Origin: Diphasiastrum complanatum
Taxonomy: Eukaryota; Streptophyta; Lycopodiopsida; Lycopodiales; Lycopodiaceae
Length of the DNA: 64,000 bases
Direction of reading: 5' to 3'
NCBI GenBank assembly: GCA_029204225.1
Contig: CM055104.1
Coordinates: 52,010,294 to 52,074,293, forward strand
Within the stretch, counting starts at the first letter, position 1; each line of letters starts with the position of its first letter. Positions 24,421-55,211 of this stretch are shown one piece after another. The notes under the pieces were generated by a model. It was not told the origin of the DNA. It saw only the letters and a list, made by a program, of their open reading frames with translations, and made no database searches. A program made the position numbers and the translations under genes.

Positions 24421-24870
<450 letters not shown>

Positions 24871-26742: not shown

Positions 26743-27390
26743 TGTGAAATATTCAACTAGTTTGATCATATTTGCTGTATTTTCATATTTTGCAAATTGA
26801 GGCCAACTTTGTTTTTAGACTTAGAGATTGACTTTTTAAAGTTCATTAGTCTATATTTCATTTGAATAAACACTTTTTGAAAGTGTGGGAAAGTTAGAAG
26901 GCAAGTTTGAGTAGATTCAAATTTGAATGTTGGATACTTTGATTCTAGACCCAAAAATAGTAGGGTTAGCATTTTGGAGAGAAAACCAAGTAGCCGAATA
27001 GGTTCTGGACCTGTTATAAAAGGAAGAAACTCATGGAGAGACACATCTTCTCTCTTCTCTATCTCATTTCATGCTTATACATGGTTCTCTTGGGTTCTAC
27101 TATCCATTGGCGCACTATACTTGTGATTGCATGCAATTCTATGTGTAGAATGGTCTATATTTGTTATTTCTGGATCCACACGTGTGAAATACAGTAGATT
27201 GCTAGTTTTGTATAGACAGCAATAGTACTTTTTCATTTGATTCATGTTTGATCAAGTTATATTAGGGTTTGCATCTCATTTTGTGTATAGATGCTGATTT
27301 TTCTACATTGGTGAGACTGGTAGGATATCTTCTTTTGTAACCCAAGACCTTTTTGTGGATTGGATCATCAATGGTCTGAAATTCTTCACA
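26743..27390 (+). repeat. 5' LTR of the RT-less Copia element
   Basis: 648 bp, TGTGAA...TTCACA. The first 295 bases match 37,431-37,725 at about 90 percent. A TATAAAAGG at about 27,014-27,022 is a plausible promoter element and is present in both LTRs. Confidence 0.9.
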
Positions 27391-36915: not shown

Positions 36916-37435
36916 TGAGCATCATTTTGATGTTGGATTTGTACTAGCATTCTTGGCTGGTTTTGCTGATGGAAATGAAGCCTTTGGAGGTTCATTATAT
37001 CACTCATTCATGATCAAGTCATCAAGGTATGATGGTATCTTGTGGCAAGATGGACATGGAGGCTCATTCATGGAGTGTCATGATGGATACATGGCAACAA
37101 AGGACAAAGAAGGAGGAAACATGCAAGAAAATGTTGATCACTCACATTTATTGTTTGTTTGTTGTATTTTTCCAAAGAGTGTAGAGTTGGAAGCATGGGG
37201 GAATCATCTCACTTACATTCTATGTGATTCTTCATTCCTCATTGAAGTGGTATTGCAACATTTTGTGAGGGAGCAAGTCATTGCAAAGGAGGTGGAGCTT
37301 CAACATGTGTCCTCAAGGGAATGTGTAGCTGATATATTCACCAAAGCATTGGGAAACGACTTGTTCATGAAGCATAGAACATCACTTGGAGTGTTATTAA
37401 AGTCTATGTTAAAACTAGTTGAAGAGAGAGTGTGA
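36916..37435 (+). pseudogene. Captured segment end and Copia RNase H tail
   Basis: The first part (A-G-F-A-D-G-N-E-A-F-G-G-S-L-Y-H-S) continues the captured sequence interrupted by the ATTGG-flanked element. The second part is Copia RNase H C-terminus: E-L-Q-H-V-S-S-R-E-C-V-A-D-I-F-T-K-A-L. It ends with the purine tract GAAGAGAGAGTG just before the 3' LTR. Confidence 0.8.
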
Positions 37436-37725
37436 AAGATTCAACTAGTTTTCCATATTTGGCAAATTGAGGCCAACTTTGTTTTTAGACTTAGAGATTG
37501 ACTTTTCAAAGTTCATTAGTTTAAGTATCATTTGAATAAATACTTTTTGAACGTGTGGTAAAGTTAGAAGATGAGTTTGAGTAGATTCGAATTTGAATGT
37601 TGGATACTTTGAATCTAGACCAAAAAATAGTAGGGTTAGCATTTTGGAAGGAAAACCAAGTGGCCAAATAGGTTTTGGACCTGTTATAAAAGGAGAAAAC
37701 TCGTGGAGAGACAAATCTTCTCTCA
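37431..37725 (+). repeat. Truncated 3' LTR of the RT-less Copia element
   Basis: Matches the first 295 bases of 26,743-27,390, including the TATAAAAGG string, then breaks off at about 37,725. The remaining LTR half was not found further right. Confidence 0.85.
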
Positions 37726-37739
37726 TATAAAAAGTTATC

Positions 37740-38650
37740 TATCTTGACTTTATGGGTTTGACAAAGTTTTGTAGTCAATCATCTTGGTGTCATTAGTAGA
37801 TAGGGCCAATTTTGGCTTTAGTGGTAAAAAGTCATGTACACATGTTTTTTGATGATTAAGCCAAAAAACATGATGACCAAAAAACAGAGAAGTGACTTGA
37901 AGACCCATTTTTTTAAAATTTACTAAATTTTTCTAAAAAGTATCTAAATTTAAAATACTTCAAATAAATATATTGTAATGGTATAAAAATGTTGTATTTT
38001 GCAAAAACATAATTTAAGCTACAAAAATTTGGTCAATAGATTTTTATAAATAGCTTAAAATTAGCTTACATTAAATAATAATACTATTTATAATAAAATC
38101 ATTAGATACACAACCACTAAAATACCTAAAAAATATTTTTTGCTTACTAAAAACAAATGTTATAGTTTTTTTTTGAAATTTTAAAAATTTTCTAAACAAT
38201 TCTTGTATCGAAAAAAATATTTTTAAAATTATGTTAAAAATTTGAATCAATGTTTTTTAAAATTTTAAATTTTTGAAAATCTTTACTTTCACCCATGTAA
38301 GTTTATTAAATATCTAAACATTAAATAAACGCAAATAAAATTACTTTACAATAATCAAGACTAAATTATTTGTGATAATATCTAAATCACCCTGAAAAAA
38401 TATAGATTTTTTTTTCATTTTTCATAATTTTTAATAATATTTTTTTTACAAAAAATATTATAAAAATACATCTAAAACTAAAATATTGTAACTTGATAAA
38501 TCATTACAATTATAGTTTTTGGTAATAATTATCAATGTTAAAATTTTTAAAATGTTTCAAATTTTAAATTTTAAATCGTTAAAAAATAAATTTAAAAATA
38601 TTAAATCAATCAAAAAGAATTCAAAACACAATACATCAAAAAATATAAAC
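37740..38650. other. A/T-rich non-coding end of the DNA transposon
   Basis: About 900 bases of very high A+T content with no frames. Candidate terminal strings (GGCCAATTTTGGC near 37,806 and GATTTTGGCCTAAAACTAGG near 43,220) do not form a convincing terminal inverted repeat. Confidence 0.5.
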
Positions 38651-38654
38651 ACAA

Positions 38655-40520
38655 TTATTCTTTAAAACAAAAGAGAATTTTTAATTTCCAAAAATCATCG
38701 ATGTCATTTACATCTTTTTCTTTTGCTTTTTCTTGAGTAGCCACTGTACTATCAAGTGGCACCTCTTCTACAATTTTCTCGACTACAGTTACTACATTGT
38801 AATCTTGATCCAAGACATTAGCAAATTCTCCTGTGTCGCCTACTTTTCCGCTAGCAGGAGGTTGAGGTTCCTTGGACAAGGGAATTATTGTATCCTCGCT
38901 GTCAAACTCTTTTCCACCTCAGATAATTCATCTGGCAAAATTGAAAGAGATTTCATTCTCATTTTTATAAAATCAACTAAATTAGTATCTAAATCTACTA
39001 CAGCAACATGTCTGTCTTTTTTAATAGCACATGCGCTCGTAGTGCTGCTACTGCTAAATAAATCTAAAACTCAATCAGTTGGGTGAGAAAAAATATCAAT
39101 TAAATGATTAATTAATTGTTGTGGCTTTTGGTAGGGACAAGCCACGGAACCCGTTATTGGATTTTTTAGTTTTTTTGTCACAATTGGATACTGGAACAAG
39201 TTTTCAAAACTTGTCAGTCCGGAAGTGTTATAATACAGCATCGAGCGTTTGTCATCCAAAAAATAATAACCGATGGTTATGTATTCTATTTCATTGCAAA
39301 GTCGAGCTCCTCTCGAGTTCTTGACATTGGGCTTGTACCTGACATGGAACATTACAAGTAAAATCAATTTAAAATTTTAATTTTAAAATAAAAAATTTAA
39401 AATAAAATTATGCATTAAAATACGAATTGATAATTCATGAACTTAAGAACTTACCACACAGCATTCTCAATTCCTACATTACAGAAAGTTAGTAAAGCTT
39501 TCTATACTGATGCTGACTGCCAAGAATAATGAAAAATAACAACTTTCCAAATTGGAGAAGTTGTGACTTCAAGAAAGTCCTGTATAAAACTATGGATTTC
39601 AGTGAATTTGAAAGGAGTATCATCATTTAATAATTCTTTCATCTGAAATCCATATGGTATATCGGCGATGCCGAGTGTATAAGGCCTTTTTCTTAAAAAA
39701 TTTGAAGTTTTTCTGCAATCGTCCTCCTCAACAGAGTAAAAGCATGTTTGATCATCGACACTTTTGAGAATGTAGGTCTCTAATGGATTCTCCTCCGCAA
39801 TGGTCTCACTCCGTGCCAATCTCTCTCCGTCCCTTTTTTTCTGTTTTTGCCTTCAGAATATGTCTCTTGAATTGCTCTGGAAGGACTTTGTTTTTTTTGT
39901 CTTCGGGAGACTGAAAAGGAAAAAGCTATGCTTAGCATGGGAGACAAAAAATATAAAATAAAATAGGAGACTTAACTTATCAAAAAATAATAATTAAATA
40001 AAAAAGCTATTAATAATAAAATATAGAAAATAGAAAATAAACAATTAATAAGCACCTATGCTAAGCATGGGTGAAATAAATACCATGTCTCTAAACAAAA
40101 TCAGAAATGGACTCAGGACTTCATTTCGGCTGCTAAGAGGATAAAGCCTCTGGCACTCATCGAAATCTTAACAATTTAACCCTGTCACAAGGGCTTCTTG
40201 AACTTTCATAAATAATTTGTGCCTGTATTTAAAAAATACAATTGTTAAAAATCCAACCAAATTATAAAAATCATTTTATTAAAAAAGGTAACATGAAAAT
40301 AAATATTCAAATTATGATTATTACCTCTAAAATTCTTTTCTCATTTCTGTCAGGGAAAGTTGACCATCGACAACTCTTGAAAGAACACTTATTATTAGCT
40401 CTGAAGAGTTAATCCCTTGCATATTCTTCCACTCTGATATTCCCATTTCAGTAGGGATTGGCTTCAGAGTTTGAGTGCTCACAACATTTTTTTTTGGACT
40501 TTGAGGCACCCTGAGCAAGT
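38655..40520 (-). pseudogene. Beta-class DNA methyltransferase (N6-adenine/N4-cytosine type), multi-exon, decayed
   Basis: Motif order is IV then I, the beta class. The exon at about 39,900-39,460 has G-I-A-D-I-P-Y-G-F (catalytic DPPY as D-I-P-Y, 39,649-39,663), then a W-K-V-V-I-F-H-Y segment. A canonical intron (GTAAGT near 39,455 to CATGTCAG near 39,340) joins it as N-A-V-W-Y-K-P-N, a W-x-K-P-type motif. Next come Y-Q-K-P-Q-Q-L-I-N-H-L-I, then V-L-D-L-F-S-S-S-S-T-T at 39,038-39,058 (normally F-x-G-S-G-T-T) and V-V-D-L-D. Earlier exons lie at about 40,225-40,080 and 40,520-40,330. An acidic tail ends near 38,655. Stops replace expected Trp twice, the motif I glycines are Ser, and a frameshift lies near 39,840. 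It is inactive here. It would methylate DNA, perhaps the transposon itself. Confidence 0.7.
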
Positions 40521-40849
40521 TGGCCTTTTATTTGGAAAGTTTCCTACTTATCAAAAATTTTATCAATAAAAGCCCACACCTGAAATAAAATAAAAAAATT
40601 TAATTGATAAAGAATTTAACCAATATTAAAATTGAGTTCAAAATTTTAGTCTGATAAAAATAATCTAAAAAGATTATAACATATATTATGACCAGAGCAT
40701 TCCATGATGAGCATAGCCAAACAAATTACCTGGCCACTATAAAAAACAAGCTGAAAAAAAATTATGGTATTTAGTAAGGCTCTGCGTAGAATTTTTCGAA
40801 TCAAAAGGCAGGTCTGTCTCTTGAGCACATAGTGCTTTCAGCTCAAGTT

Positions 40850-43005
40850 GATTCACATCTCTGCTTTGGAAACTCTCATGTATTCTTTGTGAAGAAAAAG
40901 AATTCTTTGTATCACGGTCATCTTCATCCGGTAGTCCTAATCAATATTGTGGTCCCAAGCCAATAATTTCGTTTCTTCCACTGTCAGGCCAGCAAATGCA
41001 ACTTCAAAAAAATCCAACATCACGAGGATCCTTACAGGGTCAAACTGTTTCTCCAGATGCTTTAAATGCAACTGCTTGGCTAAAGCATTTCATAGATGTG
41101 CACGAAAAAAAATTGTCTAATTCTTTATATTTTCACTTGCCGGATAATTTTACAAAATTAGAAATATTTTTAATATACAAAGAGTTTGCAAAAACAAAAA
41201 ATGTTCTCTATTTGCGTTACTCATATTTTTTTAGAATTTGGAAAAGAGATTTTGGACTGGTAAAGATTCTCAAAAAATCTACAAAAGCTCTTCAACTGCA
41301 CAGAGAGCATCGAAAGAAATGTTTGGAATGTCCACAAAAATATATGGGACTTGTTATTGATGGCATGGATCAGAACAAAACAATGTTGTCTCATTTTGTC
41401 AGAGTGCCCAAAAATTTGAACGAGACAGATTTTATTCAGGTTCATCTCGTTGAAGCACTTTTGTTTAATGGCACTTTGAAATCCAAGATCTTTTTTTATT
41501 ATCCCAATGTTCGAAATCATCCAAATTTGACGATCACCATTGTACATAAGATAATTTGCGAATTTGGTGAAAATCTTCTAGAAATACTTTATTTGCAGCT
41601 TGACAACACTGCTAGGAAAAATAAAAATCAAACTGTTCTGGCATTCTTGTCTATGCTAGTGGAGAAAAAAAATTTCAAAAAAGTAAAAATAAGATTTTTT
41701 GTTGGTAGGACATACCCACGATCAAATTGATCAAATGTAGAGTTGCCTTTCTAAGAGGTTGAGACGCAAGAAAGCATTTTCATTTCCAGTGCTTCAAAAC
41801 ATTGTTGAGGAATTGAATGTGCCAAAGCCAACGTGTCATTAATCAGACACACATATGATTTGCGTGATTATGTTAAGACATCCAACGAAACAGAGCAATG
41901 CGTAGCTAATATTAATGACATGCTTTCAGCACCAGTTTAAAATCAAATATAACAAATCAGGCATTATATTATTATGGGGCAAACTATTTTCAAATTTAGT
42001 TTCGTGGCTACCTCTTGAAGGAGTTCGATTTTTGCTTAACATTCCATCGACTCAAATCAAGCTTGTTGTGTTGTCTCCCTTGAAGTCCTTGCTAGAAGAA
42101 CAAAAGGCACAAAGAGAACATCGTGAGATTGATTCATTTGCCTCATTAAATTTTTCGGAATCAAGTATTCAAATAGCTTATTATTTTTTTGATGAGTTTG
42201 ATCAGCATTGGTGGCTGGACTTTTTCGAGGAACAAAAAATCAGTTTGCTCAATCTCGAACATACATCAACAACTCATGAATTTCATTGGCCTCATAAATT
42301 AGGAACATCAACTACGACTGTCGAACCTTCAGATTCTTGCAGCTTGTGCAAGGTGAGGAACGTGAAATTTATGTGGGCTCAAGGAAGAATAGGCAAAGTG
42401 TAAAAGCTGCAAAAATGAAATAGCGCAGTGATTTGAATGAAATCCAAATTGGAAGCCTTGTTGCACTTCTAGCTTCAGAAAACTATGAAGGACATCCATT
42501 TTGGATTGCCAAAGTACTTGGTTTTATTCAAAATAACAATCAAACAAAAGTACTACGTGTCCATTGGTTGCGCACCACTTCAACGAATGTTTTTTTGGGA
42601 AGGTACGAACTCGAAATGTTGCAAGTAGATCCAAAGGGCAAGAGAAAGAGATTGCCAAAAAATCACCCAAGAGTCGACGATTTGAATCTACAGGATGTAG
42701 ATGTTTTGACATTTAATTTTGAATTAATAATGACCAATCATCTACAAAAGTCAACAATATCTATATTGAAAGAACGACTTGGATTACTTGAAAAACCATC
42801 ATCTTCCACTCGTCATCAATAGAGGAAAGCTGATTTACAAGGTTTTTTGTCAACAATAGACGCGGATTCTGAGGAAGACATGCCAGTTGACTCTGATGAA
42901 GAAGACGGGTCTTCCACTTCATCAGCTGAAAATGAGAGTGTTGAGAATATGTCAAGTTCTGAATTGAGAGGCATCAGTGAAAATTCCTTAGAAAATGTAC
43001 TTTAA
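40850..43005 (+). pseudogene. DDE-like transposase with C-terminal reader-like domain
   Basis: The frame from 40,996 (244 codons) has G-L-V-I-D-G-M-D-Q-N-K-T (Asp at residue 122), then L-Q-L-D-N-T-A-R-K-N-K-N-Q (Asp at residue 203) and F-F-V-G-R-T, which in relatives reads G-H-T-H. The Cys-rich stretch expected before residue 105 is absent, suggesting an internal deletion. After frameshifts near 41,710-41,900 the protein continues (L-I-R-H-T-Y-D-L-R-D-Y-V) to a C-S-L-C pair near 42,345. From 42,433 comes I-G-S-L-V-A-L-L-A-S-E-N, H-P-F-W-I-A-K-V and V-H-W-L, like a BAH/PWWP/Tudor-type barrel. It ends in a Ser/Asp/Glu-rich tail. The family match (DUF7869-like) is from memory. Confidence 0.65.
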
Positions 43006-43330
43006 AAAAAAAGAATGTGCAAATATAATTTAAGTTATTTTGTATTTCAATGGGATTTCGAGTTTCAAAAATCATTTGTTCTCTTGAATTATTATTTCTT
43101 TTGTAATTATGATGGTTTTATGAAGTTTGCAACAAAAAACTTGTAGTTCTTTATTTAAAAAATGCATTTTTTGGTATTTTTTAAAAACAAAATTTAGAGA
43201 TTTATTAAAAAAAGTTCATGATTTTGGCCTAAAACTAGGACCATTAAAAAAAACCAAAAAATATTACTCTTTTTCAGGTCAAAGTCCCAAAACAAATGTC
43301 ATCGTGTTAAAAGTCAATTATTATGTATCT
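43006..43330. other. Right A/T-rich end of the DNA transposon
   Basis: Poly-A/T tracts and no frames of note. The boundary with the Copia LTR to the right is unclear, around 43,310-43,440. Confidence 0.4.
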
Positions 43331-43339
43331 CGAGCTAGT

Positions 43340-43804
43340 TAGGTTGCTTACAAGTGTACAACTTAGATTTGATGAGTGATCAAGTCAATGTGTTGGCAAA
43401 GATTCAAGTGTCCAACCATAAGTGAAAGATTTGTTAGATGGATCCAATCAAAATCAAGGGATGATGAATCACTCATCCAATAGGATTAGAGAGGTCATAA
43501 ATAAGGGGTCCAGTAGGAATTGAGCTTGGGCCACCTCGAGTTACTACATGTACTTTGATTTCCCTCATAATCTATATTGAGTTTTTGAGAGCAATTTGAG
43601 ATCAATCAATTTTGTGTGTATTACACACTCTTTCTACCCGAGGCTTGATTGGCACTTTCTCTCTCTACTTGAGAGCAACAACTTTTCTTACTTTTTTTCT
43701 TGAGTTCCTTCCACACATGTGAAACTACTTTGGTAATGAATGTATGCATGTAGATTTGCCTCTTTGCCTTAGAATTTGACTTAAATCATGTGTGAATTTT
43801 CACA
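43340..43804 (+). repeat. 5' LTR (partial or full) of the third Copia element
   Basis: It ends TTTTCACA at 43,804, followed at once by TGATATCATAGCC, a mutated TGGTATCAGAGCC primer site. The left end is not certain; TGTTAG at about 43,434 is a candidate start. No second copy is in the window because the element is cut at 46,603. Confidence 0.55.
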
Positions 43805-47151: not shown

Positions 47152-50100
47152 TTATTCATTTGGTGGTTCATCGCTATCATTTGTCGCATCATCATGCGAC
47201 AAATCTACCAAACCAAATGAGTCTATCTCTAATTCTACCCAAATATCTCCTATAGCTTCATCATTAATAAGTTGACCTTCAAAAGCTAGTGGTGACAGTG
47301 ACAACGAGTGAGATCGGAAAGGTGTGTCATGTGTCATCGATCCATCCAATGATGATGCATCACGCTCAACATCATCATTAGCTTGTGAAGCTTGCACATG
47401 ATCATCCTCCAAAAATGTGTCATCAAATCCATCATTATGATCTTGTTCATGAGGTGCATCAGTTGACAGCGCCATGTCCTCCACAACATCTCTATCTTCA
47501 AAAATTCTTTTACTTCGAGATGCGACTTGAATCATGTACCACCATCTAAAATCTAAATGATCGGGGTGAAAGACCGCCTGTAATTGATCAAGTTACCATA
47601 AACTTTGACTTGCAGTGAGTATCCATAGCTAATGTTACAGTTGTTGGGTATACATGACACTATGAATTTTTTGCAGTATACTGAAAATCAATTGTTTTTT
47701 ACAACAAAAGAGCATAGACATCTTGAAGACATAGAAGAAATGTACCTACTCACATTGTTGAGGAAAAACAAATATATCACTTTGATCCGTCCAAAGCTTG
47801 GTAGAGTCAATGGCAAAATAACCACGCTCATCTTTCCTAATAGTTGCATTGGGACCATTGCAAATAACTTTGAACCATTTGACATCAAATATGAAAAAGC
47901 TGAATTGCCTAAATCCAACTTCGAGGATGTCATTGATTGTCCCACAATAATCAAGTTGATAAGAGAGTAAATTTGTGTCCGTCGTGCTTGCTCGACTCTC
48001 TTGGATAAAATTTGCCATGATTCCACAATCGTATGTATTTCTATTTTTGTCCATACAAAAGTGTCGTCCATGCATCCACAGTACATTATATTTTTTGTAT
48101 TGAACGAAATAGAACTAAATTTGTTAGGGATACAACAAACATGTAAAAAATTGCACGTACAAATGGTTTAATTAACATGTGAATGATCATCATCATAGCT
48201 TACATGTAAATCGCACCCGCTTGCATATTCTCGCTCTCTCTTTGTTACTTCGTGGTTGTTTGCCAAGGATTCTCTAAGGGCATCACGCAGCCAATCAAGC
48301 GTCATGTCCTTGGGTAGAAGGGCGGGGTAAAGTGGATATGGTTGTCTTCTATGCCCTCTCCTGAAAGTGGCTCGAGCGGTTTGTCTACGAGCCTTGGCCT
48401 CTTCCACTTTTGCACTTCCTCACTATTAAGAATGCAAAACTTATTTACTTTCTCCCTGAAGGACTCACTCATTCTCATGATCGTTCCTTTTCCTTGAGGA
48501 ACTTCGCCAACAACACGCTCATCATCCTTCTTATCCCAAAGATGAGGAATAGAAGGATCGCTATGAGCAAGGAACTCCGTGATGTAAACCATGGACTCTT
48601 GCACTAGCCATCCTTCCGACATGCTACCCTCAGGCCTTGCTCTTTGTCTTATAAAGCCTTTCAATGTTTTCATGGATCGTTCAAAGAAAAACATCCAACG
48701 GCTATGGACAGTGCCTGAATTACAAATATGGACCAATGTTAGTGAGAGAACATGGGAATTACCACAATAGCAATTTAGTCTAGGCTGGACTAAGAATAGG
48801 CAACTGACGCAAGTAGATGATGTACCTACAATGGCCACCTCATCTACCAAATGCACAAAGAGATGCATTTTAATGGTGAGAATGGATGTGGAAAAGTGCT
48901 TCTCGATCAAACATGCTGCCTCGATGGAGCTTTGTCTTCTTGCCTCAATTGATGCCAGCGGTATCTCCTTGGATGAAATGTATCTTCATAAAAAAAGTAA
49001 ACAACAATGACATACGTATTAGTAAGATCATCATCTTGAATCATCCCAAGAAAAAATGATGTGAGATGCATTCACCGTACTTCACCAAACCACTGATTTT
49101 ATAGATTGTACTACTTTACTCCTCTATCAAGAACCCTCTCAACACCAAGGGAAGCACAAACTGCATGCACAAAAATAATCTGGTCATTGAGATACATGTA
49201 TGCGCAATGAGATCATCATGAAATTACAAGACATGCTATAAAATGTAATCCACAATGTTGAGATGGAAGCAACGTCAAAAAACATGCCATGCCGACCTGT
49301 AAAAATTTATGCCAGACATGAGACTTTAGTCCACTTAGCTTGTTGTCCCTTGTAAAGGCACCCTTTAGGCATCGCATGTGTCTTGTCGGAGTTCAAAATG
49401 AGGCTATTGCCTTCTTAACAATCGTCTCTTCTCTCCTCGAGAAGATCCATGGCGCCTTTGGGAGGACAATGAAATTCTTCACCATTTGTGGCCATAAATC
49501 GGCCATCTTTTCCACTTCTTTGAGGTCATCTTGTGCACCTTTTTTTATCTTTCGACCCGGTCAAGTGCTCCCAAATCATGCTCCCAACATTCTTGAATAT
49601 GTGCATTGGGTCCAAAAGATGGTTTATCAACAATTTCTCTCACTATGGGAGAGGGAGTCGCCTTAGATCTTGATTGGATCTCCAAATCTAAAGCCAATCA
49701 CTTGCCTACAATTTTAAGAAACAAGCACACACATTTAATCGAGATTATTGTTAGAAAATCTAAAGAGAATAACTATAAAATAAATAAATGTACATTAATT
49801 GGCCCAAATTAAATATGTATTGTATCTTCATGGATTGGGGACATTGACCACAAGTCCGTCACACATAGGGTGATCGGGTAGAAGGTATCGAGTGTGGCCC
49901 TCATAAACCATTTTTCGTAGATGTTGTGAGTGACGTGCTTGCAAATACTTGTCACAAACGGGGCATGCATTGTAGCCACTAGTTTGGAGCCCTACTTTGA
50001 GACCACAACCAATTTAATTATGAGTCTAATGTTTGAATTGAAAGAAAGTTTGTGAATACACATTCAATTTAATACCATAAATCAAACCAATGTCAAGGTT

Positions 50101-54016: not shown

Positions 54017-55211
<1,195 letters not shown>

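Follow-up and report, generated by a model that had tools for sequence, protein, structure and literature searches.

A transposon family of Diphasiastrum complanatum with a predicted beta-class DNA methyltransferase, a DUF7869 gene and a palindrome array

To our knowledge, bacterial-type amino-methyltransferases are rare in eukaryotes. Within the excerpts of the cited papers drawn on here, DIRS retrotransposons carry a Dam-like N6-adenine methyltransferase, dinoflagellate and charophyte retrotransposons carry DNMT, and marine viruses are named as having DNA transposons with DNMT (PMC5890265). The bdelloid rotifer N4CMT (N6_N4_Mtase, SPPY) and the Marchantia 4mC methyltransferase are host genes for N4-cytosine (PMC8885841). 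With regard to transposon ends, the Sola superfamily has a 4-bp target-site duplication (TSD), terminal inverted repeats (TIRs) with a lower bound of 11 bp and lengths of mostly 2-9 kb, and is present in the moss Physcomitrella and seemingly uncommon in flowering plants, while members of the Ginger superfamily have an integrase of gypsy type and TIRs 40-270 bp long of the form TG...CA (PMC10741241). The stretch analysed here, called the window, comprises 64,000 bp of Diphasiastrum complanatum (G000:C13:52010294-52074293 of the 1.74-Gb assembly; GenBank contig CM055104.1), and contains at 37867..43308 a decayed DNA transposon with the remains of a predicted DNA methyltransferase gene and a DUF7869 gene. 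In its family, one TIR-bounded unit holds both genes and a palindrome array, and the methyltransferase has been under purifying selection in the past.

Both genes within one unit

The ends of the window copy were located by comparison with other copies of the family, and both ends and the length of 5442 bp were confirmed on a duplicate copy. The left TIR, AACATGATGAC (37867..37877, plus strand), and the right TIR, with the reverse complement AACACGATGAC (43298..43308, minus strand), are the same in 10 of 11 positions, and the TSD AAAA flanks them at 37863..37866 and 43309..43312. An earlier note on this DNA had placed a transposon at 37726-43320; the element is there, and its limits are now replaced by those given above. 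A TIR/TSD scan of the flanks 37722-37799 and 43240-43394 without comparison of copies did not exceed chance (its top score of 13 was attained by 193 of 300 random controls); position 37867, the left end, lies outside the scanned range. A 9-bp TSD candidate (TTATCTATC/TTATGTATC) and a TIR candidate (TTGACTTT) were dismissed, the true ends being the 11-bp TIR and the 4-bp TSD. The duplicate is inverted and near-identical, has an equal TSD, and lies about 0.8 Mb off (G000:C13:51245958-51251399), representing either a segmental duplication or an assembly duplicate.

The window copy is dead, with stops, frameshifts and its middle gone. When aligned to the 9084-bp copy L072, about 3.4 kb (L072 3549-6935) is lost at a junction at 41001..41008, and another 250-270 bp or so is missing from the DUF7869 part at 41279-41306. 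The claim of back-to-back genes holds for their divergent layout, which recurs in other copies; their tight start in the window is partly a deletion effect, some 3.4 kb being present in L072 between the points that align with window positions 41001 and 41008. As its frames were read, L072 has a methyltransferase gene of several exons that extends toward the left from near 4.6 kb to 1.23 kb and, pointing to the right, a DUF7869 gene at about 5.98-9.14 kb.

Two ends were found in six of the eight copies sought, each with a perfect 4-bp TSD, while the right end of a copy on C4 and the left end of one on C1 were not found. The TSDs were TTAA, TTAT, AGTT, TATC (two copies with identical flanks) and AAAA (the duplicate of the window copy), which amounts to five independent insertions, including that of the window. 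Both genes lie inside the unit in all six copies, which bears out the proposed transposon pairing the two genes. The unit is 4732-9108 bp long (7.8-9.1 kb in the long copies), and its 11-bp TIRs give the termini AAC...GTT. L071, L072 and the window copy have a common right end; the left end was obtained from L072, and L071 is without one. The left end alone was sought in four more copies, three of which had the TIR, and a recognisable left end is kept in L033 (2 mismatches) and, by eye, in L016. The copy with TSD AGTT is inserted in an apparent gypsy integrase frame, the flanks of which rejoin unbroken (by eye).

Both genes are high-copy in the D. complanatum genome. The genome scans score only the best candidates per query, and the assembly contains duplicated stretches. 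DUF7869 gave 2953 first-look candidates and N6_N4_Mtase 1605, and in each case the best 150 were scored and all 150 were above the cut-off. None of the 14 control genomes matched DUF7869, and the 11 that matched N6_N4_Mtase were prokaryotes. With the window DNA of either gene as query, the best 40 places comprised the window itself, its inverted duplicate (99-100% identity, 0.8 Mb off) and 38 further copies, with 92-93% identity over about 695 of 1201 bases for DUF7869 and 91-94% for the methyltransferase.

The array region of L072 (L072:4700-6000), used as query, gave 710 candidates, the best 40 of which were scored. Among the listed matches, the methyltransferase was on the expected left side in 13 of the 40 regions (12 at 2.9-3.5 kb, one at 1.5 kb), DUF7869 on the expected right side in 8 (2.0-2.9 kb), and both in 3; no methyltransferase and no DUF7869 was on the wrong side, and the remaining regions count as neither positive nor negative. 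DUF7869 was likewise on the expected side among listed matches for 10 of 40 methyltransferase places (window and duplicate included), and was found in 8 of 16 other methyltransferase copies examined as 1.8-kb slices (in L102 its 3' part alone). The best-150 Pfam lists alone contained three pairs of both genes within 15 kb, two of them divergent, with 0.39 expected. In the locus L026, the methyltransferase is 47-57% identical to that of the window, and a divergent DUF7869 piece beside it is 72% identical to that of L072 over 61 amino acids. Elsewhere, four methyltransferase matches of another subfamily follow at about 4.5-kb spacing on C22 (G000:C22:12333634-12347569), and a local cluster is located on C24 (5.14-5.57 Mb); both groupings are possible tandem amplifications.

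The methyltransferase and DUF7869 genes

Singly, the two minus-strand exons matched adjoining parts of PF01555 (N6_N4_Mtase) with E-values of 0.0044 and 0.046, each below the cut-off. Joined across a GT-AG intron, with X at stops, they reached 3.7e-13 (50.4 bits vs the cut-off of 26.7), and the open methyltransferase exon of L072 also scored above the cut-off (49.9 bits). The top PDB match of the window methyltransferase was CcrM (1.7e-6) and the top PHROGs match a DNA methyltransferase (6.6e-12). The NCBIfam CcrM model gave 2.7e-9, yet far under its own cut-off, and MethyltransfD12 (Dam class) remained at 16.9 bits, under the cut-off of 22, PF01555 scoring best. Motif IV (ADIPYG; DIPYG 39649-39663) is followed by PYQKP and then by motif I (39038-39067, minus strand), and the order of IV before I defines the beta class. 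On its sequence, the intron-bearing minus-strand gene is a beta-class N6_N4 DNA methyltransferase, in agreement with the reading in the earlier note. Neither of the two outcomes that the note had named as refuting it occurred: the recommended profile searches assign the minus-strand exons to the N6_N4 methyltransferases and the plus-strand gene to DUF7869, and other copies carry both genes inside one TIR/TSD-bounded unit.

Exon B (38888..39338, minus strand) contains PYQKP (39122-39136), motif I (39038-39067) and a premature stop (39071-39073). Exon A (39455..39852, minus) contains motif IV and a premature stop within 39496-39516, and its upstream part continues in another frame to about 39910. 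Two upstream exons on the same strand, 40084..40221 and 40325..40527, correspond to L072 2601-2828 and 2877-3092, respectively, and a further upstream exon (40737..41000, minus) is a remnant truncated by the internal deletion. Motif I is not intact in the window: LDLFSSSSTT is present as described earlier, and its serine run represents decay, as most other copies have LDLFSGSGTT. After the window rows and eight duplicate loci were dropped, motif I ended in GSGTT in 22 of 24 other copies, and motif IV was DIPYG in 13 of 16, with DTTYG, DILYG and DIPYN once each. The loci were mostly chosen for their Pfam score, which biases these fractions of intact motifs.

The first residue of motif IV was D in 16 of 16 copies, and in this family I takes the place of a P of DPPY. 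DPPY is characteristic of bacterial adenine enzymes and SPPY of most N4-cytosine enzymes, as far as the consulted part of PMC8885841 goes. Against PDB, the family profile matched RsrI (1.4e-9), CcrM (2e-8) and MboIIA (2.4e-7) vs the N4-cytosine enzyme PvuII at 0.017. Since D leads motif IV and adenine enzymes rank far above PvuII, N6-adenine is favoured over N4-cytosine as the better guess for the target base.

Selection was assessed from pairs of copies, with stop codons and pairs of fewer than 60 comparable codons dropped and duplicate loci kept; the pairs are not independent, and most loci were Pfam-ranked. For exon B, the median Nei-Gojobori dN/dS was 1.27 at dS <0.05 (15 pairs), 0.81 at 0.05-0.2 (70), 0.31 at 0.2-0.4 (61), 0.53 at 0.4-0.7 (15), 0.14 at 0.7-1.2 (53) and 0.12 at >1.2 (173), with 95 saturated pairs set aside. 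Without distance correction, the median pN/pS of exon B went from 0.92 at pS <0.1 (76 pairs) to 0.30 at pS 0.6-0.8 (251), and that of exon A, over the same ranges, from 1.11 (43) to 0.23 (52). Because close copies differ neutrally and distant subfamilies are at 0.23-0.30, the methyltransferase has been under past purifying selection, which would fit its use by the element. For DUF7869, the values went from 0.78 (294 pairs) to 0.56 (267), across a wider span of divergence.

The family methyltransferase was about 25-35% identical to the listed plasmid and phage relatives. A family-alignment search of viral contigs returned three relatives with 29-42% identity across parts, single proteins or the DUF7869 motif pattern returned none in these contigs, and no relatives were found in the genome-contig collection. 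The frames tried for the long N-terminal region of the methyltransferase matched no Pfam family. By eye, L072:3215-3833 (minus) appeared ParB-like (GGIQ..., GMTVEEAKLLAWDHN); this reading was rejected, with no Pfam match and a ribosomal protein (E 0.27) as the sole PDB match.

The plus-strand frame 40852-41730 matched DUF7869 (PF25273) at 2.8e-20 as an open frame alone, and at 6.1e-36 once the frame-shifted remainder was joined. The remaining part of this transposase-like gene covers 41008..42990 (+), with a frameshift near 41700 and more stops. The D-G-M-D-Q, L-D-N-T and V-G-x-T motifs of the earlier note lie within 41359..41960: DGMDQ (41359-41373) immediately precedes the Pfam match, the domain extends from about 41410, LDNT is at 41599-41610 and, in the next frame, VGHTHDQID at 41705-41731. 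DUF7869 was the only Pfam domain found in the plus-gene frames scanned, and the protein is taken to be the transposase of the family. A distant-subfamily DUF7869 protein had no match in PDB, and an AlphaFold model of the single window frame was discarded (pLDDT 35.9). The C-terminal part (42424-42822, +) has by eye a small SH3/chromo-type look, with no Pfam match.

The palindrome array and its possible role

A 17-bp palindrome, CCTATGCTNAGCATAGG, has 2141 exact sites genome-wide, and its reversed control 0. In L072 and L071, about a dozen sites (≤4 mismatches) lie between the genes, and additional sites are located within methyltransferase introns. What is conserved is a short dyad of odd length with the core GCTNAGC and a free central base (T39 A31 C17 G15; 102 sites). 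In the window copy, one methyltransferase intron retains two sites, at 39925..39941 (2 mismatches) and 40055..40071 (1 mismatch), and a degenerate site with 4 mismatches lies at 40701..40717. The first 50 listed exact sites, all on C1, form 11 clusters, and are often about 41 bp apart: among the 37 intervals shorter than 200 bp, 13 are 39-42 bp long, equivalent to some four turns of the helix. Phasing at 10.4 bp was moderate (R 0.52, no significance test). The array region of L072 also aligns with itself in reverse orientation, and in several other copies such matches extend up to about 290 bp; the palindromes sit within a larger, imperfect inverted repeat.

Exact counts of the core ATGCTNAGCAT were compared with the highest of 59 permuted palindromes. 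The two long copies had 24 cores (permuted maximum 1), 12 close methyltransferase loci 23 cores in 9 loci (maximum 2), and 7 distant methyltransferase loci 16 cores in 6 loci (maximum 1). No core was found in 7 distant DUF7869 loci (1.5 kb either side of the domain, L008 dropped as duplicate; maximum 1) or in the 58.4 kb of the window outside the element (maximum 2). At ≤3 mismatches, all nine sites of L011, L013 and L035 are outside any DNA still alignable with L072, and the sites of L018 and L033 are inside alignable DNA. Among listed Pfam matches on C1 below 22.9 Mb, an exact site was within 5 kb of 1 of 7 DUF7869 and 1 of 3 methyltransferase places.

We favour, with moderate confidence, the interpretation that the window contains a dead, deleted copy of a high-copy TIR transposon, the enzyme of which would mark the DNA of the element itself via the palindromes and so control how a protein of the element binds. 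Judged by their protein families, DUF7869 would cut and paste the element, and the methyltransferase would place adenine methylation on it, probably at the palindromes or beside them. The methylation state of these sites might then govern binding of an element protein, and with it expression from the divergent promoters or the choice of copies mobilised. The array favours self-recognition or self-regulation as the putative use of the mark. A complete bacterial-style epigenetic circuit may be proposed tentatively, in which the N6-adenine enzyme methylates GCTNAGC/CTNAG in palindromes of the shared promoter and introns, and this mark, not host 5-methylcytosine, selects the copies to be expressed or mobilised.

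The main rival explanation regards the methyltransferase as a general counter-silencing tool, its adenine or N4-cytosine methylation disturbing host cytosine methylation at no special sites, and the palindromes as the transposase's alone. Transposase-binding repeats are known in plant transposons, and purifying selection fits any useful methyltransferase; furthermore, retrotransposon methyltransferases are discussed as players against host silencing in the consulted part of PMC5890265. The palindromes occur, however, in methyltransferase introns too, not just between the genes, and the exact core is absent from all seven distant-subfamily DUF7869 loci within the range given above, so we regard this explanation as rather unlikely. 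It is improbable that the array is a structural feature unrelated to DNA methylation, such as a small-RNA hairpin source or an amplification or replication signal: the opposite-strand self-match would suit it, but the central base is free, the odd-length short dyad is of the type bound by protein dimers, and lone palindromes persist in introns. A chance-captured passenger without a role for the element would agree with the decay seen in the window and other copies, but distant copies at pN/pS 0.23-0.30, the retention of GSGTT (22/24) and DIPYG (13/16) in the mostly Pfam-picked loci, and the DUF7869 piece still adjoining the methyltransferase in the diverged subfamily L026 make it very improbable. 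Finally, two unrelated elements might adjoin by chance or nesting in a window as repeat-rich as this one. This has a negligible probability and is refuted as far as the data reach, because common TIRs and a TSD enclose both genes in five independent insertions and their order is fixed.

Several observations weigh against the favoured interpretation of a self-marking transposon. The link of the palindromes with the methyltransferase is a presumed one, the transposase and a host factor being the other candidates, and the putative role of DUF7869 as transposase is based on motifs read by eye, copy number and linkage. The 28 close DUF7869 loci contained 10 exact cores (in 7 loci) vs 12 for one control palindrome; L019 and L026 were without palindromes at ≤3 mismatches, and two of the three listed methyltransferase places on C1 below 22.9 Mb had no exact palindrome within 30 kb. 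DUF7869 was missing from 8 of the 16 methyltransferase slices of 1.8 kb, and perhaps rearranged loci include C6:63469158, with DUF7869 nearby and the methyltransferase inverted, and L028, with a different gene arrangement. The genome-wide search for intact two-gene copies suggested in the earlier note did find other copies carrying both genes, none of them with both intact among the copies fetched. With respect to the target base, the plant methyltransferase of bacterial origin on record, in Marchantia, acts on N4-cytosine (PMC8885841, in the part consulted).

Neighbouring features and comparison with known systems

Outside the element, Copia-type long terminal repeat (LTR) copies are located at 26743-27388 and about 37409-37724 (ends by eye; 91% over 275 bp). 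The second breaks off about 140 bp before the left end of the element, and no continuation of it was found on the right side. By eye, a frame at 48302-48985 (-) has the look of a CACTA/EnSpm-type transposon protein. A tandem repeat of about 100 bp (54045-54145 identical to 54145-54245) is common to 54045-54254 and 24425-24609.

With its 4-bp TSD (in all six copies with both ends), 11-bp TIR and length of 4732-9108 bp, the family resembles Sola, and TSD, TIR and size would fit a Sola-type transposon. DUF7869 has Asp-containing motifs, as seen by eye. The family differs in its methyltransferase, none being mentioned for Sola in the part of PMC10741241 consulted. Membership in Ginger was rejected, as the plus-gene frames scanned contained DUF7869 only and the ends are AAC...GTT of 11 bp.

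The DIRS and DNMT retrotransposons are similar in being mobile elements with a DNA methyltransferase of their own. They are, however, retrotransposons with other methyltransferase classes, whereas the family here is a TIR DNA transposon with a predicted beta-class enzyme and a palindrome array; a DIRS-type assignment with a Dam-like enzyme was rejected on the PF01555 and MethyltransfD12 scores. N4CMT and the Marchantia enzyme share with it a bacterial-type amino-methyltransferase in a eukaryote, N4CMT being likewise an N6_N4_Mtase. These are host genes, whereas the enzyme here is transposon-encoded and has DIPYG, the comparison being made by description, not by sequence. The beta-class adenine enzymes CcrM, RsrI and MboIIA are the best solved relatives of the family enzyme and agree with it in domain and motif order; the family enzyme differs in being spliced and in its long N-terminal region.

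Judged by titles and the beginnings of abstracts, the open-licence literature searched contained no paper on DUF7869 and none describing a TIR DNA transposon that has both a beta-class enzyme and a palindrome array. Here a predicted enzyme of bacterial type, and of adenine type by its motif, is carried by a DNA transposon, was kept under selection and has been multiplied by the transposon, the genome having 1605 candidate matches. Two questions become testable: whether N6-methyladenine (6mA) is written on purpose in such a genome, by an identified enzyme whose site can be predicted, and whether transposons control themselves through private DNA marks. The 2141 exact palindromes are ready-made sites for inspection in native long reads. 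Transposon-borne methyltransferases are known as such; relative to the literature searched, it is the predicted beta-class enzyme together with a palindrome array in a TIR DNA transposon that appears new.

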